Shown: piece after piece, positions 15,710 through 46,611 of the stretch
How positions within the stretch are numbered: the stretch's first letter is position 1
Layout: every line of letters begins with the position of its first letter
Assembly (NCBI GenBank): GCA_021413735.1
Contig: JAIOPV010000244.1
Location: 1 to 49,436, forward strand
Source of the DNA: Planctomycetota bacterium
GTDB lineage: Bacteria > Planctomycetota > Planctomycetia > Gemmatales > Gemmataceae
Direction: 5' to 3'
Length of the DNA: 49,436 nt
Position numbers and translations under genes: made by a program
The notes under the pieces: model-generated
The model's input: the letters and a program-made list of their open reading frames with translations, nothing else
Databases searched by the model: none
Told to the model about the DNA's origin: nothing

Positions 15710-16687
15710 CTACTTCGCGGGCTTCAGCCTCGCACGGATGAACTCGATCACGGTCGCGTGCGTGTCGTCCACGAGCTTCTTGTCGCCGCCGCTGAGTCCG
15801 TGACCTGCCCCTTTCACGGTCAGTAACTCATAGCCGACCAACTTATCGTGAAATGCTTTGCCCATTTCCACGGAGCGTTCATACGGAACATCCGTATCAT
15901 CGGTTCCGTGAATCATCAACGTCGATGGATATTTATCAGTCACGATCCGCACTGGGCAGTACGTATCGAGTTTCGCTTTATCAGTCACGGGGTCGAACCC
16001 GGTCACTTCCTTCGTCCATATTCCATTCTGCCGCAGATAGTGATAGTATCGGCCGCGTGCCTTCCCATCGAAATCAGGTTCGCTGCCGGTAATCGCTTTC
16101 ACGCCGACACCCTTTAAGGCCTCCTCTTTCGAGATCAGCGGCACAGCCTTCCGGTAGTGTTCCGATGGCTTCGAGAGCCAGTCGCCATCGACGTCCCCGT
16201 ATCCCCAATAGGCGACCAGTGCCTTGGGCTTCGGCTTCAGTCGCGTGCCCACCATGAGCGTGAGATAGCCGCCTGCTGAACCACCGCTGACGATCATTCG
16301 ATTCGGGTCGATGTTCAGGAGCTTAGGGCCATCTTCACGCAGCCAGCGGAACGCATCGTCCACGTCGCTGATGATGTCGGGAAGTTTCACCTCGGGTGCG
16401 AGCCGATAGTCGATGGACACGAGTGCGAAGCCTTCTTGGCGGCACAGATCGAGAAGGTTCTTCGGCACACCGGCGCGATTCCCGGTCACGAGTGCGCCGC
16501 CGTGAATCCAGACGAGCACGGGGCGAACGGTCGTGTCGTCGGCACGGTAGACATCGGCCTGGATTTTGAGATCGCCGACCGTTTTGTAGGTATGAGCTTT
16601 CTTCACGAACGCAGGCTGGTCGGCCGTCGCCGGGTTCGCCATCGCGAGCAGAAGCAAGAAGCCGAATGCGGAAGCGGTCGCTCTCAT
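15710..16687 (-). CDS. Secreted alpha/beta-hydrolase (esterase)
   Basis: A 325-residue exported carboxylesterase-like hydrolase of the acetyl-esterase/BD-FAE group. A signal peptide is present (MRATASAFGFLLLLAMANPATA). The oxyanion-hole motif is HGG in VWIHGGALVTGNR (about residues 59-71). The nucleophile elbow is GGSAGG (about 132-140). The acid is probably the Asp of HGTDDTDVPYE and the base the His of VKGAGHGLSGG. All triad elements are present, so it should be active. Substrate may be an acylated sugar or polymer, as with relatives, but this is inference. It is transcribed alone towards the Tyr-rich gene. Confidence 0.9.
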   Translation of the reverse strand: MRATASAFGFLLLLAMANPATADQPAFVKKAHTYKTVGDLKIQADVYRADDTTVRPVLVWIHGGALVTGNRAGVPKNLLDLCRQEGFALVSIDYRLAPEVKLPDIISDVDDAFRWLREDGPKLLNIDPNRMIVSGGSAGGYLTLMVGTRLKPKPKALVAYWGYGDVDGDWLSKPSEHYRKAVPLISKEEALKGVGVKAITGSEPDFDGKARGRYYHYLRQNGIWTKEVTGFDPVTDKAKLDTYCPVRIVTDKYPSTLMIHGTDDTDVPYERSVEMGKAFHDKLVGYELLTVKGAGHGLSGGDKKLVDDTHATVIEFIRARLKPAK

Positions 16688-16715
16688 CGCCGATCTCCGT
16701 GGTTGTGCGAAAGGA

Positions 16716-16743
16716 AACGGGTCGGGATTGCTCCCGACCCGTT
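16716..16743. repeat. 12-bp stem hairpin upstream of esterase
   Basis: Perfect stem AACGGGTCGGGA with loop TTGC. It lies 29 bp upstream of the esterase start on the minus strand, inside its likely promoter or leader. A role in attenuation or as a relic terminator is possible; there is no T-run. Confidence 0.7.
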
Positions 16744-16791
16744 CTGTTCCCGTGGCGTCTACTTCAAGACCTGATTCGCGGAAGGCTCACG

Positions 16792-16893
16792 GCACCGCCG
16801 TGTCAGGGGTGACCGGTTTCGTCCCGAAACCGCGATCGGCGGGGTTGTCCCAGACCGGGGCGAAACCGGTCACCCCTGACACGAAAGCGGTGC
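16792..16893. repeat. 102-bp inverted-repeat unit
   Basis: Perfect 22-bp arms at 16800-16821 and 16861-16882 (starting GTGTCAGGGGTGACCGG) surround a 39-nt centre. The pairing is continued outside by GCACCGC (16792-16798) and GCGGTGC (16887-16893). It has the shape of a small palindromic interspersed repeat; no ORF. Confidence 0.85.
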
Positions 16894-16941
16894 TGGAACA
16901 GCCTTCCTCGATTGGGATGTCAGACGAATCGCTCGGACGAC

Positions 16942-16989
16942 GCAACATCGTCCTGTCGCAAAACGACGGGCTAAACCAACCACGAGAAC
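16942..16989 (+). repeat. Direct repeat, copy A
   Basis: About 46-48 nt centred on ATCGTCCTGTCGCAAA and ending CAACCACGAGAAC. It matches 17668-17713 with roughly five differences. Not coding in any supported frame. Confidence 0.75.
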
Positions 16990-17154
16990 GAGGTGAGAGT
17001 ACCCGTCGAAGCGACGCTCCGCAAGCATTCACAGATTGCGGATTGTTCCGACAATGTCCGGCATAGCAGTTGCACCAATTATCCTGGTCGAACGAGATGT
17101 TGCTCGTTCGGCTTGGTTTTCTGGGCAACCCCCAACATCTCCTTGGAGGCAGTT

Positions 17155-25923: not shown

Positions 25924-28482
25924 ATGCGATTTCCCTTCCTCTGCTCGGGCCTTTCCCTCGCCAGCCTGCTTCTCACAGTGAGTTCCGCGTCCGCGGTGAT
26001 TAAGAAGCTCACGCATCTCGACGAGGTGCTGGAGTCTCAGAAGTTCATCTTCATCGCGTCGGTCGATAAGGTCGATCCGGACAAGCCCTCGGCGATCTTC
26101 AAGGTCGAAAAGAAGCTCAAGGGCGAGCCGCCGTTCGACCGCATCCCCGTGAACATGACGGGCGACGACGATGCGAAGAAAGCCGGCGACACGAAAACGA
26201 TCCTCGAACGCCTCGATCCGAGCCGCAAGGTCGTGATCTTCGCCGTGAAGCAGAACGGCTTATACGAGGCGATGGCGTTCGTCGAAGGTTCGTGGTTCTC
26301 GCTGCAAGGCACGCCCGACCCCGAGACGAAAACCATTCGTTGGGCGTTCCTTCACGGCGAACCGTTCTTACGTCGCACGTTCAAGGGCACGACTGCCGAG
26401 ATGGTGAAGGTGATCGAGGACGGGCTGGCGAAGAAGGCCAAGCCGCCGATGGCCGACGAGAACGAGAAGCCCGGCTTCGGGCCACCGGTGGAGAAGCCCA
26501 AGAAATGCGGAATGGGGAATTCGGAATGCGGAATGCAAGACCCCGGTATTCCTTCCGCCTTCCGCCTTCCGCCTTCCGCCTTGCTGGGCGTGATCCCCTC
26601 CGTCGTGCTGCTCGGGCCGCTTGCGATCATCGCGGCACTGTTCCCTGGCGTGTTTGCTCGCATGGCCATCGGCATGAAACGCTGGCGGGCGTTCCTCGTT
26701 GTCGCCAGCATCAACAGCACGCTCGCGCTTGTGTACTGGCTCGTGCAAGAATACCTCCCGAACGGTCGAGCGTTTGGGCTGAAAGCGTTCACGATCTACC
26801 TCACGGTGATCGCGTTTGTCGGGCTGCTGTGGTCTGGACGGCGGTATCGGCGAATGGTGGTCGAAGACCCCACACTCACCAACGTGCCCGGCAAGACGGA
26901 GATCTATTCGCTCGCGGGACTGTCGGCGTTCGCGGGGCTGTCGGCGTTGTTCGTTGCGTGGTTCGCGGACTGGCAATGGCACACAAACCTCGAACTCCCT
27001 CTGCGTGAGTTCACGTTCATCGGAATCGCCATGTTCGTCGCCACGCTCTACGCCGGTTACCGCTACATCACTCGCACTGTCGATCACCTGCCGAACGGCA
27101 CACCGGTTGATCGTCGCCTCAGTCTCTCGGGCGAATCGGTCGGACTCGCGACGCTCGTGCTGTGCGGCTTCACATTCCTGATGGCGGGCGGATCACAGGG
27201 AACAATCGCAAGCAGCACCGAAACCGGTGACGCCGACGCCATCGGCCCACGGTTGGTCAACGCGAAGGCTGTCGAGTTGTACGAAGTCGATGATGGCCAG
27301 AATGAGCCGCTTCAGTGCGAAGTTCTCTCGGGCGTCGTTGCGGTCGGCGATCGACTCTATCTCGGGCTGCGAAACAATGGGTTTCCCGTCGGCGGGCGAT
27401 TGGTCTGCGTGAACCCCGAAACGGGCGAACAGCTTTGGTCGTTCCGCGAGAAGTTGAAACCGATCTTCTGCACGCCCACGGTCGTTGACGGAAAGGTGTA
27501 TTGCGGCGAAGGGCTTCACGAAGACACCGAGTGCCGGATGTTCTGTGCGAATGCGACCGACGGAAAGGCCGCTTGGGCTGAGCCGATCAAGACGGGCAGC
27601 CACACGGAAGGTGCTCCGGCGGTCGCGAACGGCAAACTGTTCTTCCCCGCAGGCGACGACGGCTTGATTGCAGCCGACACGAAAACCGGTGGTCGGCTGT
27701 GGCAGTTCAAGGGCGGCAAGGACGCGGGCATTCACGTCGATGCAGCGCCGGCTGTCAGCGGCAACCGCGTGTTCATCGGCAGCGGGTTGTACTCGTTCGT
27801 CGCGGTGGCACTCGATACGGAGTCGGGCAAAGAGCTTTGGCGAACTGATCTGAAACTGCGATCGTTCGGCGCTCCGTTCGTGCTGGGGAAGTTCGTGTAC
27901 TACGGCGTCGGCACCGGAAACATGGTCGCCGACACGCACGACTACCCCGAAGAGGGCGGCAAGAAAGACGGGGTTGCGGCGGGTGCGGTCGTGTGCCTCG
28001 ATGTGGAGACAGGCAAGGAAGTCTGGCGGTTCGACTTGCCGCGTTCGGTTCACACGGGGCTTGCGGGCGATGCGTTCAGCGTCTACGCCACGGCACGCGA
28101 TGGGCACGTGTACGCCATTGACCGCAAGACCGGCAAACTCCGGTGGAAGACGCAGATCGGCAGCGCGTTCATGGCACCGCCTGCCGTGGCGACGTCGGGC
28201 GGGATTCCCGTGGCGGTGTATGCCGTGAGTCGCGAGGGAACTGTGGCGTGCCTGAACCCGCACACGGGACGCGTCGTGTGGCAGAAGTCGCTGCCCGGTT
28301 ACAAGTGGGACGGCAAAGAAGAGAACGGCGTGCTGAGTGGGCCGACCGTGGTGACGACCCCGACCCCGACCGGCAGCAAACGCACGATTTACGTCGGCGG
28401 CATGAAGGTCGATCCGGACAATCCCGCGAAGAAGACCGCCGCCGTGTTCCGCTTCGAGGATGAAGTTGGTGAGGGGAACTGA
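25924..28482 (+). CDS. Membrane protein with PQQ-type beta-propeller
   Basis: An 852-residue envelope protein. Signal peptide (MRFPFLCSGLSLASLLLTVS), then a domain of unknown type (about residues 25-190). About six membrane helices follow at roughly residues 222-245, 252-275, 280-300, 322-345, 353-375 and 392-414. The C-terminal half, from about residue 430, is a PQQ-like propeller with blades of the pattern [VL]-x-x-x-T-G-[KE]-x-[LV]-W (ETGEQLWSF, ESGKELWRT, ETGKEVWRF, KTGKLRWKT, HTGRVVWQK). Its function is unknown; propellers of this kind often serve as scaffolds and no quinoprotein active site was recognised. A repeat-derived insert lies at residues 194-220. Confidence 0.82.
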   Translation: MRFPFLCSGLSLASLLLTVSSASAVIKKLTHLDEVLESQKFIFIASVDKVDPDKPSAIFKVEKKLKGEPPFDRIPVNMTGDDDAKKAGDTKTILERLDPSRKVVIFAVKQNGLYEAMAFVEGSWFSLQGTPDPETKTIRWAFLHGEPFLRRTFKGTTAEMVKVIEDGLAKKAKPPMADENEKPGFGPPVEKPKKCGMGNSECGMQDPGIPSAFRLPPSALLGVIPSVVLLGPLAIIAALFPGVFARMAIGMKRWRAFLVVASINSTLALVYWLVQEYLPNGRAFGLKAFTIYLTVIAFVGLLWSGRRYRRMVVEDPTLTNVPGKTEIYSLAGLSAFAGLSALFVAWFADWQWHTNLELPLREFTFIGIAMFVATLYAGYRYITRTVDHLPNGTPVDRRLSLSGESVGLATLVLCGFTFLMAGGSQGTIASSTETGDADAIGPRLVNAKAVELYEVDDGQNEPLQCEVLSGVVAVGDRLYLGLRNNGFPVGGRLVCVNPETGEQLWSFREKLKPIFCTPTVVDGKVYCGEGLHEDTECRMFCANATDGKAAWAEPIKTGSHTEGAPAVANGKLFFPAGDDGLIAADTKTGGRLWQFKGGKDAGIHVDAAPAVSGNRVFIGSGLYSFVAVALDTESGKELWRTDLKLRSFGAPFVLGKFVYYGVGTGNMVADTHDYPEEGGKKDGVAAGAVVCLDVETGKEVWRFDLPRSVHTGLAGDAFSVYATARDGHVYAIDRKTGKLRWKTQIGSAFMAPPAVATSGGIPVAVYAVSREGTVACLNPHTGRVVWQKSLPGYKWDGKEENGVLSGPTVVTTPTPTGSKRTIYVGGMKVDPDNPAKKTAAVFRFEDEVGEGN
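26504..26583. repeat. GCGGAAT / CCTTCCG repeat read in frame in the PQQ gene
   Basis: A left tract of GCGGAAT units (26506-26536) and a right tract of four CCTTCCG units (26551-26580) are roughly inverted repeats. The segment keeps the frame and encodes KKCGMGNSECGMQD and then PSAFRLPPSALL, just before the first membrane helix. Related to the GGCGGAAGGC tracts in glnE and beside feoB. Confidence 0.8.
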
Positions 28483-28547: not shown

Positions 28548-31070
28548 TTATCGTTTCAGCCGGTAGAACAGCGCGTCGAGTTTGTCCGAGAAGTTCTTCG
28601 ACAGCGGGGCGTAGCGAAGGTCGGTCGTGTACTTCTGGCCTTCGTGCGTCGCCCATTCGAGGAAGTCCACCACCTGTGGGTCAGGCTTCCCCTCTTTCGG
28701 CATCGGCAACAATGCCCACGTCGCCCCGGTGATCGGATACGCCGTCTCAGACTTGCGATCCACCAGCGAGAACACCAGATCATCGGGGATGCCATTCCCC
28801 AGCGAGGCGGCCGCTGCCGTCACATTCTCGAACGTCGGCGGAACCACCGTCCCCTGCCGATTCTTGATGAGCCCATAGCGCAGGTTCAGTTGCAGGGCGT
28901 GCGACAACTCGACATAGCCAATCGCGCCGGTCGTGCTGTTCACGAGATCGGTCACCCCGTCACTCTTGGCGGCACCCTTGCCGAGCGGCCATTTCACGGA
29001 TGCGCCCTTGCCCGCTTTCTCCATCCATTCCGCACTGAAGGCGCTCAGGTAATCCGTCCAGATGAAGGTGGTGCCGCTGCCATCGGAGCGGTGCGTCACC
29101 GTGATCGGGCGGTGCGTGAGCTTGTCCTTCGCCATCGGGTTGTTGATCAGGATCGCCTCGTCGTCCCAGTGGGTGATGCGACCGAGGTAAATGTCCGCGA
29201 GAATCGGCCCCGTGAACGTGAGCTTCTCCGGGCCGAGTTCCGGCAGGTTGTAGATCGGCACGACCGCACCCAGCACGATCGGGATATGCCGCACGTCGCG
29301 GCCCTTGTCCGCGAGTTGCTTGAGTTGTGCCGCGGTCATCGGTGCGTCGGTGCAACCGAACTGAAGGCTGCCGTCGATGACGCCTTCAATTCCCTTGCTG
29401 GAACCGACGCTCGCGTACTTCAGGGTTTGTTTCTTATACAGCCCGGTCCAGTGATCCATGATCGGCCGCGCGAACGACGACCCAGCGCCGCTGATCGTGC
29501 CCACCGGAGTTGGCACCGGCGTCGGATTCGTGTCTGGTGGCGTTGGCGGAGTGGGTCGAGTCACCAGTGGCAGGACAACGGGTGGAGGTGCCTGGGAAGT
29601 CGATCGACTTTCGGGCCAGGACAGCACCGCGAGACTTGCGACCGCGATTGACCCAATGACGCCGCCGGCAATCCAGGTCCATTTCGGTGAGCGTTTGCGT
29701 TGCGGCTCGGTCACGCGGCGTTCGGGCTCTGGTTCGCTCAGTTTGCGAGTCGGTTCTAGGCTGACGGCTGGCGTGTCGCGGCGGGCATCCGAAGCCGGGG
29801 CAACCGAGATGGCTCCCGAATCCGGCGTTGCTCCTGCTGAGTATGCGACGGTTGACGGCGGCCGATCGTTGAACAACGACCCCGAAAGCGGTCCGAGTTT
29901 GCTGACTGACAGAGACGACGAAGAGCTGGTCGTGGAGGGTGTTGTTGGTTGCGGACACAACCCAAGGCGAAACGAATTTGCTGCCAGTTTCGGCATCGAC
30001 TTCGTGTCCGGTGGGGCAGGGGTCGGCTTACTGAACTCGACGAGCGCGGCTGCAACCTCGGCTGGCGTCTGGTAGCGATCCTGCGGCTTCTTCTCCATCA
30101 TCCTTGCGACGACTGCTTCCAACTCTGCCGGCACCTGTGGCGAATGCTTGCGAATCGGGACGGGTTGTTGCATCTGGTGAGCCATCATCTTCTGGGCGAA
30201 GATGTCGGTGTCGAAAACCATCTTCCCCGTGAGCAGGAAGTACAGACTGCAACCGAGGCTGTAGATGTCGGCGCGGATATCGACTCGACTGCTATCGACA
30301 GCCTGTTCCGGAGCCATGAAATCGGCGGTTCCGAGAATCACCTTGGAATCGTAGCGTTCCGTGACTCCCTGATTCCTGCGGGAATCCACGAGGAACCGCG
30401 CGAGCCCCAGATCGAGAACCTTCACAACCCCCGCACGGTCGAGGATCAGATTCGACGGCTTGATGTCGCGGTGAACGAGGCCCGCTTCGTGTGCGTGCTG
30501 CAATCCCTCGGCAGCTTGTCGAACGTAATCGGCGGCCCGGTTGGCGTCGAGCGCTCCGTGCCCCACGACGTATCGGCTCAGATCGACGCCATCAAGGTAT
30601 TCCATCACCATGAACGGGGCACCGCGAGTCTGATCGACGTCGAAGACTCTCGCAATGTTCTTGTGATCGAGTGCCGCGACCGCCTGAGCTTCACGATAAA
30701 ACCGTTCGATGTTGCCTTGCGACTGCGAAGCGTTCGCGGAATTCGTCGGGCTGACGCCAAGCACCTTGACCGCGACGAGCCGGTGAAGCAGCAGATGTTC
30801 ACACAGGTAGACTCGACCCATGCCGCCGGTGCCGAGGTGATCGAGGATCTTGTACTTCGTCGTGAGAAAGAAGCCTTGCGGTCGCCCTTTCAAGAGCACC
30901 TTGGCCTGGAAGGGCGTGAGCATGCCATCACGAACGAGGCGGGTCGCCATCGTCATCGCGGGCTCGCCAACGCCAACGAACGCACGGTACGGCTTCAGAC
31001 GCTCAGGAGTGAGGAGTCGACTCGCTTCCGTGAGCGTGAGGAAGTCGGCAGCGGTTGACTCGGTCAGCAT
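28548..31070 (-). CDS. Ser/Thr kinase fused to PstS-type phosphate-binding domain
   Basis: An 840-residue probable receptor kinase. A Hanks-type Ser/Thr kinase domain fills residues 73-345: GTGGMGRVY loop (80-88), Lys102 in VAVK, HRD 200-202 with RDIKPSN, DLG at 220-222 and APEQ 254-257. A Ser/Thr/Pro-rich linker (350-462) and one membrane helix (465-484) follow. Residues 525-840 are a full PstS phosphate-binding protein: GAGSSFARP, VGSSKGIE, TDAPMT, DIYLGRITHWDDEA, and RSDGSGT (661-667), which matches the E. coli PstS phosphate loop, with Asp575 in place of its Asp56. Expected topology is kinase inside, binding domain outside. The start lacks a good ribosome-binding site; ATG 31115 is in frame upstream. 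No pst transport gene lies nearby. Confidence 0.93.
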   Translation of the reverse strand: MLTESTAADFLTLTEASRLLTPERLKPYRAFVGVGEPAMTMATRLVRDGMLTPFQAKVLLKGRPQGFFLTTKYKILDHLGTGGMGRVYLCEHLLLHRLVAVKVLGVSPTNSANASQSQGNIERFYREAQAVAALDHKNIARVFDVDQTRGAPFMVMEYLDGVDLSRYVVGHGALDANRAADYVRQAAEGLQHAHEAGLVHRDIKPSNLILDRAGVVKVLDLGLARFLVDSRRNQGVTERYDSKVILGTADFMAPEQAVDSSRVDIRADIYSLGCSLYFLLTGKMVFDTDIFAQKMMAHQMQQPVPIRKHSPQVPAELEAVVARMMEKKPQDRYQTPAEVAAALVEFSKPTPAPPDTKSMPKLAANSFRLGLCPQPTTPSTTSSSSSLSVSKLGPLSGSLFNDRPPSTVAYSAGATPDSGAISVAPASDARRDTPAVSLEPTRKLSEPEPERRVTEPQRKRSPKWTWIAGGVIGSIAVASLAVLSWPESRSTSQAPPPVVLPLVTRPTPPTPPDTNPTPVPTPVGTISGAGSSFARPIMDHWTGLYKKQTLKYASVGSSKGIEGVIDGSLQFGCTDAPMTAAQLKQLADKGRDVRHIPIVLGAVVPIYNLPELGPEKLTFTGPILADIYLGRITHWDDEAILINNPMAKDKLTHRPITVTHRSDGSGTTFIWTDYLSAFSAEWMEKAGKGASVKWPLGKGAAKSDGVTDLVNSTTGAIGYVELSHALQLNLRYGLIKNRQGTVVPPTFENVTAAAASLGNGIPDDLVFSLVDRKSETAYPITGATWALLPMPKEGKPDPQVVDFLEWATHEGQKYTTDLRYAPLSKNFSDKLDALFYRLKR

Positions 31071-31287: not shown

Positions 31288-32223
31288 TCACCCCATCTGT
31301 GACTTGTACCAATCGAGCGTGAGCCGCAACCCGTCCGCGAACGAGACTTGCGGAGCGTATCCCAACTCGGTTCGGATGCGGTCGATCTTCGCACGCGAAT
31401 GCCGAATGTCGCCTGCGCGTTCCGGCCCGTGGATCGGCACCGCCGACGTGCCCAGGATCGTGTTTAGTTCTCGCACGAGATCCAACAGCGTGATCGAGTT
31501 GCCTGTGCCGACGTTGTATACCGCTCCCGAAACTCCAGGCGTGGTTGCCGCGAGAATCAGCGCATTCGCCACATCCGACACATACACGAAGTCACGCGAT
31601 TGCAGACCGTCGCCGTGAACGGTCGGCGTTCGACCAGCACTTAACGCCGCAGTGAAGATCGCAATCACGCCGGAATACGGGCTGTCGGGCCGTTGCCGGG
31701 GACCGAACACGTTGAAGAATCGCAGTCTGACGGTTTCGAGGCCGAACGTCGCCGCGAACGCCTGACAGTAGAACTCGCCCGCGAGCTTCGCCGCCGCATA
31801 CGGCGACAACGCCACCAACGGCGTCTCTTCACTTTGGCCGGCCGGGTCGCTCGCGCCACCGTAGGCGCTCGCACTTCCGGCATACACTACACGTCGCACG
31901 CCGGCTTTCCTCGCTGCGTTCAGCACGTTCAGCGTGCCGGTCGCACACACGGCATGACTCGTCGCGGGATCTTCGATGCTCTTCGCCACCGACGCCAGCG
32001 CCGCGAGATGGTACACGACTTCGCAGCCCGCAACGGCCGCTTCCAATGCTGCTGGGTTCGTGACGCAGCCCTCGCACACCTCGACGCCATTGGCGATATT
32101 GCTTGGGAGCCCCGTCGAGAAGTCGTCGAAGACCCGCACGGCCCGCCCCTGAGCGCGAAGGGCATCGACAAGGTGCGACCCAATGAAACCCGCACCGCCC
32201 GTTACCAGACACAACCCATCCAT
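31288..32223 (-). CDS. NAD-dependent epimerase/dehydratase (GalE-like)
   Basis: A 311-residue extended short-chain dehydrogenase, most like UDP-glucose 4-epimerases acting on nucleotide sugars for surface polymers. The Rossmann NAD-binding motif is TGGAGFIGSH (about residues 8-17), with the Asp-Asp after strand 2 (VFDDFSTG) preferring NAD. Active-site Ser (SASAYG) and the YxxxK pair (YAAAK, about residues 148-152) are present. RFFNVFGPRQ and QSRDFVYVSDV are typical of the sugar-binding half. Length is normal. The start codon is shared with no neighbour; the sigma-factor gene is transcribed away from it. Exact sugar unproven. Confidence 0.9.
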   Translation of the reverse strand: MDGLCLVTGGAGFIGSHLVDALRAQGRAVRVFDDFSTGLPSNIANGVEVCEGCVTNPAALEAAVAGCEVVYHLAALASVAKSIEDPATSHAVCATGTLNVLNAARKAGVRRVVYAGSASAYGGASDPAGQSEETPLVALSPYAAAKLAGEFYCQAFAATFGLETVRLRFFNVFGPRQRPDSPYSGVIAIFTAALSAGRTPTVHGDGLQSRDFVYVSDVANALILAATTPGVSGAVYNVGTGNSITLLDLVRELNTILGTSAVPIHGPERAGDIRHSRAKIDRIRTELGYAPQVSFADGLRLTLDWYKSQMG

Positions 32224-35636: not shown

Positions 35637-37907
35637 TCACCCCATCGCATCGATAATCATCGAACCAAACTGGAACGTGACCATCGCCCCGAGATACGCC
35701 AGCACCGTCATGTACACGAACGTGAACGCGGGCCACGCCCAACTCTTCGTCTCGCGACGGATCACCGCAAGCGTACTCGCACACTGGCAGCACAACGCGA
35801 AGAACACCATCACCGACATCGCCACAGCCACGCCGTACTTGCTGCGAATCGGATCCTTCGACCAATCATCCTTCACGGCCTTCGCCAATCCAGCCGCCTT
35901 CTCCTTCGCTTCCTCGTCAGCGTCGTCGTTACCGATCGCCTTCGTGTCCACGTCGCCGACATCGTAGATCAACCCAAGCGTGCCGACGATCACCTCGCGA
36001 GCGGGGAAACTCGCCAGCGCCGCCATGCCGATCTTCCAGTCCCAACCCAACGGTCGGAACACCGGTTCGAGGTACAACCCCGTGCGGCCGAGGTAACTGC
36101 TGCGCTTCCATTCACCGTTGAGGTGATCGGCTTGACCCGCTGCCTCTTCGAGTTTCTCCAACTCTGCTTTCTCGTCGTCGGTCGCGTCGGGTTTTGCCTT
36201 CAATTCCTTGAGTTTATCCTCGTTGCTCTTGGCGGCTTCTTCGGCTTTCTCAATGCGATTGGGATATGATTCGCCGTTCGCGTCGCGATGCGGGAAGTAG
36301 AGCAGTGCCCACACGAGAATCATCGCCGCGAAGATGAACGTGCCCGCCCGCAGCGTGAACGCCCAACCCGCCTCCAGCATTCGTCGCAGCACCGCGAAGA
36401 TTTTCGGTCGGCGGTACGCGGGCAGTTCCATCACGAACACCGGCGTCGCGCCCTTCAGCAGCGTTCGCTTAAGCACGAGGGCGACAAGCGGAGCCACCAC
36501 GAAGCCGATCATGTACAGCGCGAACAGCACCAACCCCGGCACCCACGAGGAGTAGCCTTCCTTCAGGAACGCACCGATCAGCAGCACGTACACCGGCAGC
36601 CGCGCCGAACAGCTCATCAGCGGCGCAACAACAATCGTCGCCAGTCGGTCGCGGCGGTTCTCGATCACCCGCGTTGCCATGATGCCCGGCACCGCACACG
36701 CCACGCTCGACAACAACGGAATGAACGACTTCCCGCTGAGGCCGCAGCGACTCATAAGGCGGTCCATGAGGAACGCCGCACGAGCCATGTAACCGCAGTC
36801 TTCGAGGAACGCGATGAAACCGAACAGGATCATGATTTGCGGCAGGAAGATCAGAACGCTGCCGACTCCCTTCACGACGCCATCCACTAGCAACGCCCGC
36901 AGCGGCCCCGACGCCATGTTCCCTTCGATGCCCTTTGCGATGTCTTCGCGAACGCCGTCGATGCCATCCATGAGCGGCTTCGCCCACAGGAAAATCGACT
37001 GAAACATCAGGAACATCACGACGAGGAAAACCAGCGTTCCCCAGACACGATGCGTCAGGACTTTGTCGAGCTTATCCGTGAATGCAACGGGTCGCACGGC
37101 AGGTCGCGTGACGCCGACGGCGACAGCAGCACGAACCCAGGCGAACCTGGCTCGGGCTTCGACACCCGGAACCGAGTGCCCTGCGTCCGCGAGGCGTTGC
37201 CGGGCTTCCGCGAGCTTCTGCTTGAGATCCTGACCGTGATGTTCGACCTGCCACGCCTCGACATAACCGCCGACATCAAGGAGCAATCTTCGCGTGAGGA
37301 AGCCGGGCACATCCGCACCGAGTTCGGTTTGCAGCGAGGTAACTTCCTTCTCGAACGCTTCCGGGAACGCGGGGCCGACGGGTGCCTTCGCCTCTTCGGC
37401 GGCAGCGAGCATTGCTTGCGTAAGGGCTTCGATGCCGATGCCCTTGTTCGCTTGAATCGGAATCACCGGCACGCCGAGTTTCGCACTCAACGCGGTGCAG
37501 TCGATCTTGACGCCCTGTGCCTCGGCCGCATCAATCATGTTCACGGCAACCACGACCGGTTCACCGAGATCGAGGAGCTGGCTGGTGAGGTAGAGGTGCC
37601 GATCGAGGTTGGTGGCGTCCACGATGGAGAGAACGACATCGGGGCGCGGTTCTTCGGGGCGGCGACCGAGGAGCAAATCGACCGCGACCATTTCATCAGG
37701 GCTGCGTGCCGCAAGGCTGTATGTGCCGGGCAAGTCGATGAGATCGACGGTTAAACCGCCCGCGGTGAACTGCCCCTTCTTCATCTCGACGGTGACGCCG
37801 GGATAGTTACCGACACGCTGTCTCAACCCGGACAGCGCATTGAACAGGGTCGATTTCCCGGCGTTCGGGTTCCCGACCAGAGCAACGGTGAGCGTTTTGG
37901 TGAGCAT
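35637..37907 (-). CDS. feoB: Ferrous iron transport protein FeoB
   Basis: A 756-residue Fe(II) transporter with an N-terminal GTPase. G1 is GNPNAGKST (about residues 11-19), G3 is DLPGTYSL, and G4 is NMID. A helical domain follows and then the membrane core, beginning near residue 280, with the Cys/Pro-rich GATE motifs (SFIPLLSSVACAVPGIMATR) recognisable. A charged coiled segment (about residues 555-620) lies between membrane helices. The start ATG is preceded not by a ribosome-binding site but by repeat sequence (GGCGGAAGGC units on the other strand), so initiation may depend on leader structure or on an alternative start. Confidence 0.93.
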   Translation of the reverse strand: MLTKTLTVALVGNPNAGKSTLFNALSGLRQRVGNYPGVTVEMKKGQFTAGGLTVDLIDLPGTYSLAARSPDEMVAVDLLLGRRPEEPRPDVVLSIVDATNLDRHLYLTSQLLDLGEPVVVAVNMIDAAEAQGVKIDCTALSAKLGVPVIPIQANKGIGIEALTQAMLAAAEEAKAPVGPAFPEAFEKEVTSLQTELGADVPGFLTRRLLLDVGGYVEAWQVEHHGQDLKQKLAEARQRLADAGHSVPGVEARARFAWVRAAVAVGVTRPAVRPVAFTDKLDKVLTHRVWGTLVFLVVMFLMFQSIFLWAKPLMDGIDGVREDIAKGIEGNMASGPLRALLVDGVVKGVGSVLIFLPQIMILFGFIAFLEDCGYMARAAFLMDRLMSRCGLSGKSFIPLLSSVACAVPGIMATRVIENRRDRLATIVVAPLMSCSARLPVYVLLIGAFLKEGYSSWVPGLVLFALYMIGFVVAPLVALVLKRTLLKGATPVFVMELPAYRRPKIFAVLRRMLEAGWAFTLRAGTFIFAAMILVWALLYFPHRDANGESYPNRIEKAEEAAKSNEDKLKELKAKPDATDDEKAELEKLEEAAGQADHLNGEWKRSSYLGRTGLYLEPVFRPLGWDWKIGMAALASFPAREVIVGTLGLIYDVGDVDTKAIGNDDADEEAKEKAAGLAKAVKDDWSKDPIRSKYGVAVAMSVMVFFALCCQCASTLAVIRRETKSWAWPAFTFVYMTVLAYLGAMVTFQFGSMIIDAMG

Positions 37908-37911
37908 GATT

Positions 37912-37975
37912 AAAAGGCGGAAGGCGGAAGGCAGAAGGCGGAAGGAAGACAAGAAACGAAGCAGAAAAACAAAAG
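37912..37975. repeat. GGCGGAAGGC tract, left flank of the four-helix-bundle ORF
   Basis: A purine-rich tract with four GGCGGAAGG/GGCAGAAGG units followed by AAGACAAGAAACGAAGCAG. Its near complement forms the tract at 38348-38461, on the other side of the small ORF, so the two flanks are inverted relative to each other. Confidence 0.85.
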
Positions 37976-38329
37976 TCAGGACCGTGCTTTCGTAGTTTTG
38001 ATTGCGGCGACGGTCATGCGGATGAGTTCATCGGCTTCTGCAAGCAAATCACTCATTCGCTCCGATTCCACGATTCCAGATTCAACGAGTAACTCTAACC
38101 AAAGCATGGTCTCATCGAGTTCTTGCTCAACGATGCCGAGTTTGGCGAGAAACTCGGAGTTTGAGCGTGCTCGACACGCTTCGCGGTAATTGGCCGCAAC
38201 GCTTGTCCCAGATCGCAAGACTTGCTTGCCCAACACTTCGGTCTCAACTCGTTTCGGTAACGCTCCAAACATGCGGATGACCCGAAGCGCGAACTGCTTG
38301 GTGCGATCCCGCATTTGGTCGTTTTTCAC
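37976..38329 (-). CDS. Four-helix-bundle protein (23S rRNA IVS/S23 family)
   Basis: A 117-residue all-helical protein of the four-helix-bundle family first found inside 23S rRNA intervening sequences (TIGR02436-like). Conserved pieces include the QVLRSGTSVAANYREACRAR motif (about residues 36-55), EFLAKLGIVEQELDET and WLELLVESGIVE. It is a GTG start (38329) with GGAG 8 nt upstream. It sits between feoA and feoB, where no such gene belongs, with inverted GGCGGAAGGC tracts on both sides. This suggests a mobile cassette inserted in the feo operon. Its molecular role is not established; relatives accompany 23S introns and diversity-generating elements. Confidence 0.9.
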   Translation of the reverse strand: MKNDQMRDRTKQFALRVIRMFGALPKRVETEVLGKQVLRSGTSVAANYREACRARSNSEFLAKLGIVEQELDETMLWLELLVESGIVESERMSDLLAEADELIRMTVAAIKTTKARS

Positions 38330-38347
38330 CTGTCCGACTCCGAAGTG

Positions 38348-38461
38348 TTTTCCGCCTTCTGCCTTGTGTTTTCTGTCTTCTCTGTTTCCGCCTTCCGCCC
38401 TCTGCCTTCCGCCTTTGGGACGCCTTCCGCCCTCCGCCTTTGGGACGCCTTCCGCCTTTGC
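38348..38461. repeat. GCCTTCCGCC tract, right flank of the four-helix-bundle ORF
   Basis: A pyrimidine-rich tract of GCCTTCCGCC/GCCTTCTGCC units, the complement of the type at 37912-37975. It contains a 24-nt direct repeat (38409-38432 and 38434-38457; core CCTTTGGGACGCCTTCCGCC). No supported ORF. Confidence 0.85.
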
Positions 38462-38469
38462 GTAAGACC

Positions 38470-38697
38470 TCAGACGATGCGAACGCTGATGCCAGCAGCC
38501 TCGGCTTTGCGGAGGGTCAGGCGGGTGTTGCCGAGGCGTATCTCGATGGGGTCGCCGAGCGGGGCGCGGCCAAGAAACTCGACCGTCTCGCCTTCAAGGA
38601 GACCGAATTCGTAGAGGCGTTGCACGAGGGCGGGTTCGCCGGTGACCGCGAGAACTTCGGCTTGCTGACCGACGATGAGTTCGCTGAGGGCGGGCAT
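38470..38697 (-). CDS. feoA: FeoA family protein (second copy)
   Basis: A 75-residue SH3-like FeoA protein, which helps FeoB activity at the membrane. The family pattern is visible as VTGEPALVQRLYEFGLLEGE, then VEFLGRAPLGDPIEIRLGNT, then LTLRKAEAAGI. It lies 1 bp after the first feoA. Two successive feoA genes are common in bacteria. The link to feoB is interrupted by the inserted cassette at 37912-38461. Confidence 0.88.
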   Translation of the reverse strand: MPALSELIVGQQAEVLAVTGEPALVQRLYEFGLLEGETVEFLGRAPLGDPIEIRLGNTRLTLRKAEAAGISVRIV

Positions 38698-38698
38698 T

Positions 38699-38923
38699 TC
38701 ACGACACCGGACGCACGAGGATTTGCGAGCACTCGCCGCCGCGCAGACAGAGCTTGCAGCCGTTCACGTCGAGCAAGCACGGACTACCCGACTGCACAAC
38801 ACGAACGCGACAACCTTGCCGGATGCCGAGTTCGGCGAGTCGGCCAACCCACGCCGCTTGACCGGAGACCTCTTCGATCTCGGCCGTCTCGCCAGAACGG
38901 AGCATATCCAAGGGCATCAACAT
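38699..38923 (-). CDS. feoA: FeoA family protein (first copy)
   Basis: A 74-residue FeoA-like protein, first of the feo unit. It shows GQAAWVGRLAELGIRQGCRV, VVQSGSPCLLDVNG and LCLRGGECSQI. Unlike its neighbour it carries four Cys, including C-x-x-x-x-x-x-C pairs near the C-terminus, which might bind iron. GAGG is 5 nt upstream of the ATG at 38923. It shares the SH3-like fold length with the second copy, but similarity is low. Confidence 0.85.
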   Translation of the reverse strand: MLMPLDMLRSGETAEIEEVSGQAAWVGRLAELGIRQGCRVRVVQSGSPCLLDVNGCKLCLRGGECSQILVRPVS

Positions 38924-39307: not shown

Positions 39308-42300
39308 TCACGGATTGCGTTCGCGAGTGGTGATTGCGTCGTAGCGTGTTCGCACATCGGCGGTGATGCGTTTCAGTTCGGCGAGGAACTTCCCAGACGA
39401 ATCGAAGCCGAGTCGATGAGCCAGCTTCGCGAGATCGTTGGCGTTCTCGGGAATTTCGGTCAATGGGCGGTCTGTCACGATTCGCAGCCGCGCCTCGACC
39501 AATCGCAGGAACGAGTAGCCATCACGCAACGCCGTCGCGTCGTCGGCCGGGAGCAAAGACGCAGCCTCCAGCGAGTCGAGCGAATCCCACACGTTCGGCT
39601 TCAACACATCCGGGTGCTCACGGCCATACTTCAACTGCAGTAGTTGCACGACGAACTCGACATCGACAATTCCACCCGGCCCACGTTTCAGGCTGCGGGC
39701 GTTCGCCGTGACTTCCAGCTTTTGCCGCATTCCGCGAATCTCGTCGGCGAGTTGTGGACACCACGCTTTGCCGAGCATCGCGGCTCGAATCGCGGCGGTC
39801 ACATCAGCAGCGAACGCCGGTTCGCCACGCACAACCCGTGCTCGCGAGAGCGATTGCCGTTCCCACAGCATGCACCCCGACCCGCTGAAGTATCGCTGAA
39901 ACTCCGCCAGCGGCAGCACGAGGTTCCCGGATTTGCCGGTGGGTCGCAATCGCATATCGACCGCGTAGAGCCGCCCCATTGGTCCCATGCGAGAGGTTGT
40001 GCGAATGATCTTCTGCGCCAACTCCGTGAAGAACTGTGCGTTTGGTTCGCCGCTGTCGGTGGTGCCGTCTTCCTCGTAGACCAGCAGCAAATCGAGGTCG
40101 CTGTGATAGCTGATTTCACGACCGCCGAGCTTCCCCAAACCAAGCAACGCGTATCGACAGGGCGGAAGGCGGTAGGCAGAAGCCGGAATAGAGTCGGTGT
40201 CTTCTGCCTTCGTTTCCGCCTTCTGCCTTCCGCCTTCCGCCTTCCTCAAGGGGCTTCCCCAGCGTGTCCGCACTTCCGGTTCCACCAACTCCACGACCTG
40301 ATTCAACACCGTGTCGGCGACATCCGAAAGCGCTGCGGTTGTCAGACGTACTTCCACTTTGCCGAGCAGGTCGCCGACGCCAATGCGAAGGAACTCCTTG
40401 TCTTGAAAGCTGTGCAGAATCGGGTCCAGGTCGCTCGCACCGCGGCACAGTTCGGCGAGTTCGGCCCGTAACTCCTCTGCCGTTCGCGGTTGATCCAACA
40501 CGAGGCTATCGAGGAGTTCGTCGATCATGCCCGGGTTGTTGATGAGCAACCCCGACAGAAACGGACTGCCGGCGCACAAATCGACATACAACCGCAGACT
40601 CGGCGGATTGGAACTGAACAACTCCCACAGCACAGCCTTCGCCCCGAGCGACACCGAGACGCGTTCGAGTTGCGTGAGCGCTTCGTCGGGGTCGGGCGTC
40701 TCGGCGACGGCACGCAGCAGTTGCGGGGCGATGCTCGCGAGGAAGTGCCGACACCGCCGTGCGGAAAGAAACGGCACCGACTCACGAGCCAACTGCGACA
40801 GATTGGCGAACGCCTTCGGCACATCCTGGAACGGGTAGCGACCGAGAACGGCTCGCACCGTGGCTTCGTCCGGATCGGGATCGAGGATGAGGTCGGCCTC
40901 CGGCTCCTCCTTGCCGCCCGCATCGGCGAACGTCTGGTGAAGCAGGTGGTTCAGGATAATCCGATCCTGGTCGGTCTTGTTGCTCAGATCCTTGATGAAC
41001 TGATCGAGCGGATCCGCTGGCAGTTCGCGAGTATCAACGGCCGATGGAGCTGATTCGTACTCGTCGAGGGGTGACCGACGCTGCGGAGATAGTGCGGAAG
41101 GCGGAATGCCCTCAAGCAAGGCGGAAGGCAGAGGGCGGAAGGCGGGAAGAGTATCTATTGCGTCTTGGTCCGCCTTCTGCCTTCCGCCTTCCGCCTTTGG
41201 AACGTATCCCATTCGCAGTGCGAGCTTTCGCAACTCATCGCGTGATGCCGGCAACTTGTGCGTGTGCAGATCGAACAGCAGTTGCAAGCGGTGTTCGGTC
41301 TTGCGAAGGAAGCGGTACGCATCCGACAGAATGTACGTTTCCTGCGGCGTCAGGCAGCCAGCGATCTCCAGGGATTCCAGGGCGAGAAGCGTGTTTCTCT
41401 GACGAACCGCTGGCAGATCGCCACCGTTCAGCAGTTGCAGGAACTGCACCGTGTACTCGATGTCGCGAATGCCACCGCGACCGGTTTTCACGTCGGCCGG
41501 GATTTCCGGGTGGGCCAATTCGCGTCCGCCGTTGCTCGCGGCTGAGCCACTTCGGCCGGCACGCTGTTCCATCTGCCGCTTGAGTGCCTTCACCTCGTTG
41601 ATTTCCGCGAAGCTGAAATACTTCCGGTAAACGAACGGCTCGACAGCCACCAGAAACTCACGAGCCAGGGCGGCATTCCCCGCGACGTGCCTCAGCTTGA
41701 TGAGCGCCTGGCGTTCCCATGTCCGACCCATCGTGTCGTAGTAGCTCAGCGTGCTTGCCATGCTTTGAGCGAGCGGGCCGCGATTGCCTTCGGGCCGCAA
41801 TCGCAGATCGACACGATACGCGAAGCCACGGTCCGTCGGCGTCTGAAGCAAACGGATGACATCCTGCACGACGCGGGTGAAGAATTCCGCGTTCGACACG
41901 CCCGTTCGCCGACCGGTTGTTTCGCCGTCGTGGTCGTAGACGAACATCAGGTCGATGTCGCTGGAATAGTTCAACTCGTCGCCGCCGAGTTTGCCGAAGG
42001 CCAGCGCCGTGATCTGTGCGGACGCGACACCAGCTATGGTTGGCGTCCCGAACCGGTTCGCGACCGTTCGCATCGCGTATTGCAGTGCAATCTCGATGGA
42101 GGAATCCGCCACGCGAGCGAGTTCGCGGGTGACTTCTTCCAACGGCCGATCACGGATCACGTCGTTGATGCCGATCCGCAGCGTGTGCCGATTACGGAAT
42201 CGGCGAAACGCACGCAGCACGGCGGGATCGTCTCCGGCGGCTTCCACTTCGTTGCGCAGTTCGGCGGTGAGTTCTGCGGTCGAAGGGCTGCGTCGCGGGG

Positions 42301-42634
42301 CGGCTCGCACCGAATCGAGGAACTCCGGGTACGTCGTGAGCGTGTCGGCGAAGAACTGCGACGTGGCGAGCAACTGGAGAACCGCGTCGAGTCCGCGAGC
42401 GCGTGATTCGAGTAGATGCGGGAGTTGCTGCCGTGCAACGGGCTGAGCGAGTAACCGTTCGAGGTTGTTCAGCGCCATGTCGGGGTCGGCGGTGCGCGGC
42501 AGCAACCGAGCTACCGGAGTGACGATGTCGGCAAATGCCTTCGCGCCGAGATGACTCGCGAGGGCGGCAAGATTGCGTTGCCCTCGGTCGGCATCACGGA
42601 CGAGTTTCAGGATGGGTTCTTCGTGCGCGGACAT
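39308..42634 (-). CDS. glnE: Bifunctional glutamine synthetase adenylyltransferase/deadenylase
   Basis: A 1108-residue enzyme that adenylylates glutamine synthetase when nitrogen is plentiful and removes AMP when it is scarce. Two nucleotidyltransferase domains are present: N-terminal GKLGGDELNYSSDIDLMFVY (about residues 222-241) and C-terminal GKLGGREISYHSDLDLLLVY (about 837-856), both with the paired Asp for metal. Flanking motifs such as GREVSH-type RAGRSGSAASN... and the HLLHQTF helix fit the family. It is longer than usual because of two in-frame repeat inserts (about residues 478-514 and 797-825). The start at 42634 begins the conserved region; the frame is open farther upstream. Confidence 0.93.
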   Translation of the reverse strand: MSAHEEPILKLVRDADRGQRNLAALASHLGAKAFADIVTPVARLLPRTADPDMALNNLERLLAQPVARQQLPHLLESRARGLDAVLQLLATSQFFADTLTTYPEFLDSVRAAPRRSPSTAELTAELRNEVEAAGDDPAVLRAFRRFRNRHTLRIGINDVIRDRPLEEVTRELARVADSSIEIALQYAMRTVANRFGTPTIAGVASAQITALAFGKLGGDELNYSSDIDLMFVYDHDGETTGRRTGVSNAEFFTRVVQDVIRLLQTPTDRGFAYRVDLRLRPEGNRGPLAQSMASTLSYYDTMGRTWERQALIKLRHVAGNAALAREFLVAVEPFVYRKYFSFAEINEVKALKRQMEQRAGRSGSAASNGGRELAHPEIPADVKTGRGGIRDIEYTVQFLQLLNGGDLPAVRQRNTLLALESLEIAGCLTPQETYILSDAYRFLRKTEHRLQLLFDLHTHKLPASRDELRKLALRMGYVPKAEGGRQKADQDAIDTLPAFRPLPSALLEGIPPSALSPQRRSPLDEYESAPSAVDTRELPADPLDQFIKDLSNKTDQDRIILNHLLHQTFADAGGKEEPEADLILDPDPDEATVRAVLGRYPFQDVPKAFANLSQLARESVPFLSARRCRHFLASIAPQLLRAVAETPDPDEALTQLERVSVSLGAKAVLWELFSSNPPSLRLYVDLCAGSPFLSGLLINNPGMIDELLDSLVLDQPRTAEELRAELAELCRGASDLDPILHSFQDKEFLRIGVGDLLGKVEVRLTTAALSDVADTVLNQVVELVEPEVRTRWGSPLRKAEGGRQKAETKAEDTDSIPASAYRLPPCRYALLGLGKLGGREISYHSDLDLLLVYEEDGTTDSGEPNAQFFTELAQKIIRTTSRMGPMGRLYAVDMRLRPTGKSGNLVLPLAEFQRYFSGSGCMLWERQSLSRARVVRGEPAFAADVTAAIRAAMLGKAWCPQLADEIRGMRQKLEVTANARSLKRGPGGIVDVEFVVQLLQLKYGREHPDVLKPNVWDSLDSLEAASLLPADDATALRDGYSFLRLVEARLRIVTDRPLTEIPENANDLAKLAHRLGFDSSGKFLAELKRITADVRTRYDAITTRERNP
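40161..40245. repeat. GGCGGAAGGC inverted-repeat element inside glnE (C-terminal)
   Basis: A left arm of GGCGGAAGGC units (40161-40192) and a right arm of GCCTTCTGCC/GCCTTCCGCC units (40201-40245) can fold into a long hairpin. Read in glnE it encodes LRKAEGGRQKAETKAED then ASAYRLPP, directly before the second catalytic motif. No stop codons, frame kept. Confidence 0.88.
41094..41200. repeat. GGCGGAAGGC inverted-repeat element inside glnE (linker)
   Basis: Left arm 41094-41151 and right arm 41168-41200, same units as the copy at 40161. Encodes KAEGGRQKADQDAID then FRPLPSALLEGIPPSALS between the two halves of the enzyme. Frame kept. Confidence 0.88.
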
Positions 42635-42808
42635 GCGGTCATCATACCGCTGGAAGGAAGCCGGGCGAACGAGATGACCTGTTGCTTGCGGCGTTGGCAA
42701 GGAAAAGGAAGTGGTTGCGGCGTTTCTCATTGATTCCGGGCGACAGGCACACCCATCCCCGGAACCATGTTACTCGTTGCGGCTAATTCTTGGCTTTCGC
42801 TCTATCCA
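42635..42808. other. Gap between SGNH hydrolase and glnE
   Basis: 174 bp, no gene or repeat recognised. It should hold the glnE promoter, unless glnE is read through from the SGNH gene upstream. No promoter box was assigned. Confidence 0.4.
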
Positions 42809-46257: not shown

Positions 46258-46611
46258 TTACGGTCCAATCGCTTCGCCGCCGCGTTCGCCTGTGCGAATC
46301 CGGACAGCGTCTTCGAGCGGCAGCACGAAAATCTTTCCGTCGCCGATGGTGCCCGTTTCGCCGCTGCGGGCCGAGTGAACGATCGCCTCGATGGTTGCCT
46401 CAACGAAAGGCTCGGTTACGGCAATCTCCAGCTTCAACTTCGGCACAAGGCGAATCTGCACCTCCGTGCCGCGGTAGACTTCGGTGTAACCGCGCTGACG
46501 ACCGCAACCGCGGACATCGCTGACGGTCATGAGGTAGACATCGCGCTCAGCGAGCGCCTTCTGCACATCTTCGAGCTTTTCAGGGCGGATGATCGCAACA
46601 ACAAGTTTCAT
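46258..46611 (-). CDS. glnB: PII nitrogen-regulatory protein (GlnB/GlnK)
   Basis: A 117-residue trimeric nitrogen and energy sensor that binds ATP/ADP and 2-oxoglutarate and can block Amt pores. The N-terminal MKLVVAIIRPEKLEDVQKAL, the T-loop region from GRQRGYTEVYRGTEV and the C-terminal GDGKIFVLPLEDAVRIRTGE are all typical. In the T-loop, residue 51 is Val (GTEV) where enteric PII has the uridylylated Tyr51; Tyr46 and Tyr42 are present. So the usual modification site is absent. Whether to call it GlnB or GlnK cannot be settled from sequence, but the place next to amt favours GlnK function. There is no strong ribosome-binding site. Confidence 0.93.
   Translation of the reverse strand: MKLVVAIIRPEKLEDVQKALAERDVYLMTVSDVRGCGRQRGYTEVYRGTEVQIRLVPKLKLEIAVTEPFVEATIEAIVHSARSGETGTIGDGKIFVLPLEDAVRIRTGERGGEAIGP

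Follow-up and report, generated by a model that had tools for sequence, protein, structure and literature searches.

A planctomycete gene family joining a Hanks-type Ser/Thr kinase to a PstS domain: candidate one-chain phosphate receptors

The fused gene and its predicted layout

The window, a stretch of 49,436 nucleotides from a planctomycete of the family Gemmataceae (GCA_021413735.1, contig JAIOPV010000244.1), carries a gene that joins a Hanks-type Ser/Thr kinase to a complete PstS phosphate-binding domain. The gene reads along the minus strand, from an ATG at 31070 down to 28548, and encodes 840 amino acids plus a stop. The coordinates of the initial annotation hold on this strand; the plus strand of the same stretch is interrupted by stops. 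The longest open frame at the locus begins at a GTG at 31394 and would encode 948 amino acids; the ATG at 31070 is favoured because the first start of an orthologue (L080) sits at the aligned position. The features of the gene are as follows.

28548..31070, minus strand: kinase-PstS fusion coding sequence, 840 amino acids (open frame; start backed by L080)
30891..31070, minus strand: residues 1-60, short helical N-terminal region with TPFQAK at 52-57 (alignment; model helices)
30066..30854, minus strand: residues 73-335, Hanks-type Ser/Thr kinase (PF00069, E 2.8e-49; motifs)
29679..30065, minus strand: residues 336-464, Ser/Pro-rich linker, predicted cytoplasmic (pLDDT under 50; model of low confidence from 377)
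29616..29678, minus strand: residues 465-485, single predicted membrane helix with basic residues ahead (hydropathy 1.92; 4 K/R before, 1 after)
29499..29615, minus strand: residues 486-524, Pro/Thr-rich linker, predicted outer (sequence; low pLDDT)
28551..29498, minus strand: residues 525-840, complete PstS phosphate-binding domain (PF12849; PDB matches; model pLDDT 92.9)
29070..29090, minus strand: residues 661-667, RSDGSGT phosphate loop (motif; PhoX contact list in the available part of PMC5439949)
Ser532, Phe533, Ser557 and Asp575, minus strand: other predicted phosphate contacts (comparison with the same part of the PhoX list)

Pfam matches, motifs and hydropathy together confirm the architecture first proposed for this chain, a complete Hanks kinase followed by a predicted membrane helix and a full PstS domain. 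Pkinase (PF00069) was matched at 73-335 of the 840-residue protein and PBP_like_2 (PF12849) at 516-808 (E 1.9e-34). The kinase motifs comprise VAVK with Lys102, HRD at 200-202, DLG at 220-222 and APE at 253-255; a motif check thus found Lys102, HRD and DLG exactly where they had been reported. Across 11 aligned proteins, Lys102, Arg201, Asp202, Asn207, Asp220, Gly222 and Glu255 were invariant. With both the Pkinase domain and the motif set in place, the protein is by its motifs a Hanks-type Ser/Thr kinase, with predicted activity. The N-terminal region (residues 1-60), including TPFQAK, is conserved in part across the fused family described below.

Hydropathy was scanned in a 19-residue window rather than with a dedicated predictor. 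The sole hydrophobic stretch between the two domains was found at 465-483, with four Lys or Arg residues just before it and one just after. The same scan revealed no hydrophobic N-terminus in the window protein, and no signal peptide or lipobox belonging to the PstS domain itself was seen by eye. All 19 fused proteins of the family have an inter-domain hydrophobic segment (mean hydropathy at least 1.45), with at least as many Lys and Arg residues before it as after. Since more basic residues lie ahead of the hydrophobic segment than behind it, the kinase is predicted to face the cytoplasm and the PstS domain the exterior. By prediction, then, the protein has the layout of a receptor Ser/Thr kinase, with a cytoplasmic kinase, one helix and an extracytoplasmic sensor. 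A free periplasmic or lipid-anchored PstS serving PstCAB looks different, since here PstS forms the C-terminal half of a chain in which a kinase and a hydrophobic stretch precede it. In the full-length AlphaFold model, the kinase and PstS domains were mostly confident, residues 377-523 between them were of low confidence, and the membrane helix was placed without confidence; with this and a pTM of 0.45, the model makes no prediction of the relative arrangement of the domains.

Several other features were observed elsewhere in the window. Nitrogen control genes lie close together on the minus strand, namely a GlnE-like adenylyltransferase gene (39308-42730), a P-II protein gene (46258-46611) and an ammonium transporter gene (46721-49261), with a lipase-like gene and a copper amine oxidase gene between them. 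An iron uptake cluster at 35637-38923 starts with FeoB, matched in Pfam, and continues with three small proteins assigned by eye, one of four-helix type and two that are FeoA-like. A 7-base repeat, CTTCCGC, is found at 26552-26583, 37913-37944, 38385-38441, 40165-40244 and 41124-41198. An 18-base probe for it gave 16 matches in the window with at most two mismatches, where none was expected, and 20 exact matches in the same genome; a reversed-pattern control was uninformative, because the probe reads the same backwards. Some copies form opposed pairs about 50-70 bases apart. The repeat also lies inside a propeller/membrane protein gene (25924-28482), where it is read in frame as FRLPPSA, and inside the glnE-like gene.

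Distribution and descent of the fused family

A search with the PstS domain gave matches in 95 of the 397 genomes of a class sample and in 64 of 95 genomes of the window's own family. The survey of planctomycete genomes that the initial annotation had called for thus yielded at least 19 kinase-PstS genes in at least 14 of the 397 class genomes, counts that are lower bounds because at most five candidates were scored in many genomes. A kinase stood in the same frame in 19 of 64 distinct PstS-type frames. The 14 carriers comprise 12 of the 95 genomes of the window's family (5/19 in its genus group) and two genomes of another family of the class. When class matches with an open frame of more than 600 residues were considered, 19 of the 21 were fusions, and the other two (G087 and G376) were long PstS frames without a kinase. 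None of the fused sequences was dropped from these counts; partial pieces ending at a contig end or a frame change (L006, L007, L062 and L069) were not counted as fused, and the short pieces L075 and L076 of G045, together with sequence duplicates, were handled separately in the count of distinct frames. In the draft genome G089, regions resembling the kinase and PstS parts of this family adjoin in different frames (L050, 8191-10364), probably representing a family member with a broken frame.

In a collection of 84,980 genomes of named species, a pattern-based scan matched 422 stretches, of which 394 were confirmed; the best 80 were taken, representing 79 loci. Ten fused genes were confirmed at nine loci among these best 80 of 394 confirmed stretches. 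They come from genomes within the 14 carriers and add names, not numbers; among the named carriers are Zavarzinella formosa DSM 19928, Limnoglobus roseus PX52 and, as a draft, a genome labelled Schlesneria. The complete chromosome of L. roseus PX52 has two fused copies. The other 70 loci, from many phyla, had no kinase in frame, at least four of them (L082, L086, L101 and L114) being cut by a contig end. Thus, no fusion outside Planctomycetota was seen in the 79 loci drawn from the best 80 of 394 confirmed stretches, a sample that leaves room for distant fusions. In a sample of 149 genomes of Actinomycetota, 56 had a PstS match, and the four open frames longer than 600 amino acids had no match to the window's kinase. 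The long frames L150 and L116 contained no Pkinase domain in Pfam.

An assembly error without homologues elsewhere had been named as an outcome that would undo the reading of this gene. Such an error is rejected, as 14 genomes carry the fusion, one complete chromosome has two copies of it, and the kinase domains of its homologues group together. The kinase-PstS architecture is far beyond chance and recurs in other genomes.

An unrooted tree was built from 52 kinase domains, comprising the 19 fused ones and 33 near non-fused kinases. The latter were the 15 best of the window's own genome and 18 high-scoring ones from the three named genomes of Zavarzinella, Limnoglobus and the Schlesneria draft, and do not represent a whole kinome. 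All 19 fused kinase domains fell on one side of a branch with 100/99 support. In the PstS tree, a 79/91 branch has the stand-alone proteins on one side and the fused proteins and contig-end pieces on the other; the partial pieces fall among the fused sequences, and if these pieces are treated as a separate category, five changes of the fused label are required. Because the fused kinase domains group together, the trees suggest one fusion event, followed by descent, duplication and loss.

The window gene was compared with two orthologues by dN/dS, with values that are rough because dS is high. These were 0.07-0.17 for the PstS domain and 0.08-0.14 for the kinase, versus 0.30-0.41 for the linker at 346-464 and 1.1-1.3 for the membrane segment (19-20 codons), which is hydrophobic yet not conserved in sequence. 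As judged from these estimates, the kinase and PstS domains are both under purifying selection.

The predicted phosphate site and pst genes in the carriers

Solved PstS proteins match the sequence along the full length of the domain (E 2.9e-63 for 8ods and 1e-58 for E. coli 1ixh), and the 19 distinct sequences found in the solved-structure search are all named phosphate-binding or phosphate-transport proteins. Structure prediction of residues 525-840 and comparison with PstS, the check originally suggested, returned a PstS fold. Folded alone with 17 relatives, the domain gave a model with pLDDT 92.9 and pTM 0.90, and its first 20 Foldseek matches were PstS/PhoX proteins, several with bound phosphate. 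The best structural overlay was with X. citri PstS 8ods (Z 40.6 over 308 residues, rmsd 2.6, 38% identity), the next entries being tied; E. coli PstS 2abh gave Z 39.9.

The available part of a study of X. citri PhoX lists Ser34, Ser62, Asp80, Arg159, Gly164, Thr165 and Asn201 as phosphate contacts, reports that Ser replaces Thr at the first contact position in the X. citri proteins, assigns to an aspartate of E. coli PstS the recognition of phosphate and the discrimination of other oxyanions, and names two regions of PstS for permease docking (PMC5439949). The window protein keeps six of these seven contacts (Ser532, Ser557, Asp575, Arg661, Gly666 and Thr667), with Ser532 being the same Ser for Thr as in X. 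citri. At the position of Asn201 it has a Ser, as do 9 of 41 stand-alone proteins. The RSDGSGT loop was located by motif check at 661-667, in agreement with the initial annotation. The E. coli PstS contact numbering used below (Thr10 to Thr141) agrees with the PhoX list at an offset of 24. Asp56, Arg135, Asp137 and the SGT motif, in this numbering, are all present in the window protein and in the two orthologues nearest to it. The phosphate contacts of the window protein are nearly intact, and the domain would be expected to bind phosphate.

All nine ligand-region positions, allowing Ser for Thr at 10, are kept in 12 of the 19 fused members, and the other seven differ at one or more of them. 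Changes were found at position 56 (to E or G) in 2/19, at position 11 (to L) in 3/19 and at position 137 in 3/19. With regard to the permease-docking surface, alignment columns 39, 58 and 112 were more variable in fused than in stand-alone PstS, a difference too small to support a conclusion. Among stand-alone proteins, two neighbouring PstS-type proteins of G006 (L064, 8552-9640 and 10220-11311) have Val at 11 and His at 56, hinting at another ligand for these two.

The window's own genome encodes just one other PBP_like_2 protein. Its gene adjoins a PstC-PstA type gene, the product of which is 69% identical to its counterpart in G016, and a divergent ABC ATPase gene, probably pstB. PstC/PstA-matching permeases were found in 13 of the 14 carriers, and a separate binding protein likewise in 13 of 14 (for G045, contig-end pieces only). 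With both present in so many carriers, it is unlikely that the fused copy acts as the sole binding protein of a transporter. A draft genome, G019, has the fusion with no other PBP_like_2 protein and no permease match, an absence that carries little weight at 92% completeness and about 1430 contigs.

In the stretches scanned, 17 of the 19 fused genes had no permease gene beside them, and two adjoined pst genes. In G016, the fused gene and a pstCA gene converge, with 9 bases between them. In G008, it lies directly upstream of pstS-pstC-pstA on the same strand (L043, 13496-15835, with 15992-17122 as the second coordinate pair). The ligand positions of this G008 copy read PLSDRDGGA, with several contacts lost, whereas those of the neighbouring transport PstS are normal (TFSDRESGT). 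The G008 copy is therefore probably without the usual phosphate binding, to judge by these residues, which suggests that some members may read the transporter or another ligand. Weak PstB-like ABC ATPases near the fused genes of G008 (C412), G026 and G228 scored 69-103 bits, versus 614 for the true one, and were set aside as generic.

A search for PhoU (PF01895), a component of the canonical Pho system, gave no match in the window's own genome, which is 95.7% complete; a control found PhoU in 13 of 14 genomes. Matches were missing from 14 of the 19 genus-group genomes, whether or not they carried the fusion. Within the family, 7 of 12 fusion carriers had a PhoU match, as compared to 63 of 83 other genomes, and loss of PhoU as a partner of the fusion was rejected on these numbers. 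Because seven family carriers have a PhoU match and most genus-group genomes show none, with or without the fusion, the fusion is not a simple replacement for PhoU.

The purple acid phosphatase near the window's gene, which had been put forward as evidence, was rejected as conserved context, since no homologue of it turned up in the stretches scanned around the other fused genes. Neighbours recurring in at least three genomes were limited to prepilin-like and other genes of common appearance, ABC ATPases of a generic kind and two genes common to G007, G008 and G045.

A candidate receptor kinase for phosphate

Phosphate sensing in bacteria is usually described as indirect, PhoR reading the transporter via PhoU. 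In the PhoR/PhoU/PstSCAB system, as in the fusion, sensing starts at a PstS-type domain; there, however, the information reaches a histidine kinase by way of the transporter and PhoU, whereas the fusion places the binding domain and a Ser/Thr kinase in one chain. Its PstS domain shares the fold of the PstSCAB proteins (E. coli 2abh, X. citri 8ods) over its whole length and nearly the same phosphate contacts, but it forms the outer, C-terminal half of a predicted membrane kinase and stands apart from stand-alone PstS in the tree.

The nearest parallel is PknD of M. tuberculosis, a receptor Ser/Thr kinase with a six-bladed beta-propeller sensor, encoded in a predicted operon with pstS2 according to the accessible portion of PMC3322341. 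PknD also has an inner kinase, an outer sensor and a genetic link to a phosphate-binding protein, but PstS2 is a separate protein, whereas in the fusion PstS is itself the outer domain. The PASTA kinases PknB and PrkC have a kinase inside, a membrane segment and an outer ligand-binding domain (PMC6213207, in the part available); their PASTA domains, which are not of the binding-protein fold, interact with peptidoglycan, whereas the sensor of the fusion is PstS. A phosphate signal likewise passes through PstS to the P. aeruginosa chemoreceptor CtpL, but CtpL is no PstS-fused kinase: it is a chemoreceptor that binds a separate phosphate-loaded PstS (PMC4926252).

Taking PstS and the receptor kinases PknD and PknB as analogues, we propose that the window protein is a receptor Ser/Thr kinase with a single membrane pass and direct sensing of phosphate, a reading to which we assign a probability of about 0.6. 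At the outer surface of the inner membrane, the PstS domain would close on inorganic phosphate. Through the membrane helix, closure would alter how two receptor chains pair or are oriented, provided that the receptor dimerises, and this change may raise or lower trans-autophosphorylation of the cytoplasmic kinase. The kinase would then hand the signal to downstream targets, along a route bypassing PstSCAB, PhoU and PhoR. More tentatively, the family as a whole may consist of one-chain phosphate receptors of single origin, in which PstS was captured once and which, in the window's genus group, stand in for the route through the transporter and PhoU; in this extended form the proposal is possible but doubtful.

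The same architecture could also serve to report on the transporter. A tethered PstS would dock on PstC/PstA in the manner of free PstS, and the kinase would read whether it is docked or displaced, that is, the transport state or permease occupancy rather than phosphate by itself. The fused genes beside pst permease genes in G016 and G008, the lost phosphate contacts of the G008 copy and the PstC/PstA matches in 13 of 14 carriers are all consistent with such coupling. It is harder to reconcile with the 17 of 19 fused genes that have no permease gene beside them, with the phosphate contacts kept in 12 of 19 members and, to the small extent that absence from a draft counts, with G019, where the fusion occurs without another PBP_like_2 protein or a permease match. 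We consider transporter coupling unlikely.

Drift of the PstS domain towards another oxyanion or small molecule, in at least part of the family, would account for the changes at positions 56 (2/19), 11 (3/19) and 137 (3/19). However, the window protein and the two orthologues nearest to it retain Asp56, Arg135, Asp137 and SGT, and it is this aspartate that discriminates phosphate from other oxyanions in E. coli PstS, according to the available part of PMC5439949; a receptor for another ligand is thus rather improbable. The broken frame of G089 and the poor binding site of one member might instead suggest that the fusion is decaying or silent in signalling, one of its two parts, kinase or binding domain, having ceased to matter. 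Against such decay stand the dN/dS values of 0.07-0.17 obtained for both domains when the window gene is compared with two orthologues, the invariant catalytic residues and the presence of the fusion in two families of the class, which make it very improbable. Direct sensing of phosphate by a receptor kinase is the reading that we prefer.

Transmembrane Ser/Thr kinases with outer sensors are already known, as is PstS; what is new is their fusion into a receptor kinase with PstS as its sensor. The initial annotation knew of no described phosphate receptor of this architecture, and we likewise found none in the open-access literature, judged mostly from listings. The pair may sit without comment among the 307 architectures that were counted for planctomycete kinases in a survey from 2024, the available part of which names WD40, TPR, sulfatase-modifying, DUF1080 and tubulin-like domains on these kinases (PMC11032199). 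The same part gives about 100 Ser/Thr kinases per planctomycete and remarks that kinases of like architecture form no highly supported clades (PMC11032199), a remark to which the kinase-PstS family looks like an exception.

The window's own genome has 152 Pkinase matches. To our knowledge, few planctomycete kinases have a known ligand. Because the ligand of the fused protein can be predicted from its residues and the domain should express easily, the question of what a planctomycete receptor kinase senses becomes directly testable. If the proposed reading is true, the fusion would provide these bacteria with a direct route from outside phosphate into Ser/Thr phosphorylation.
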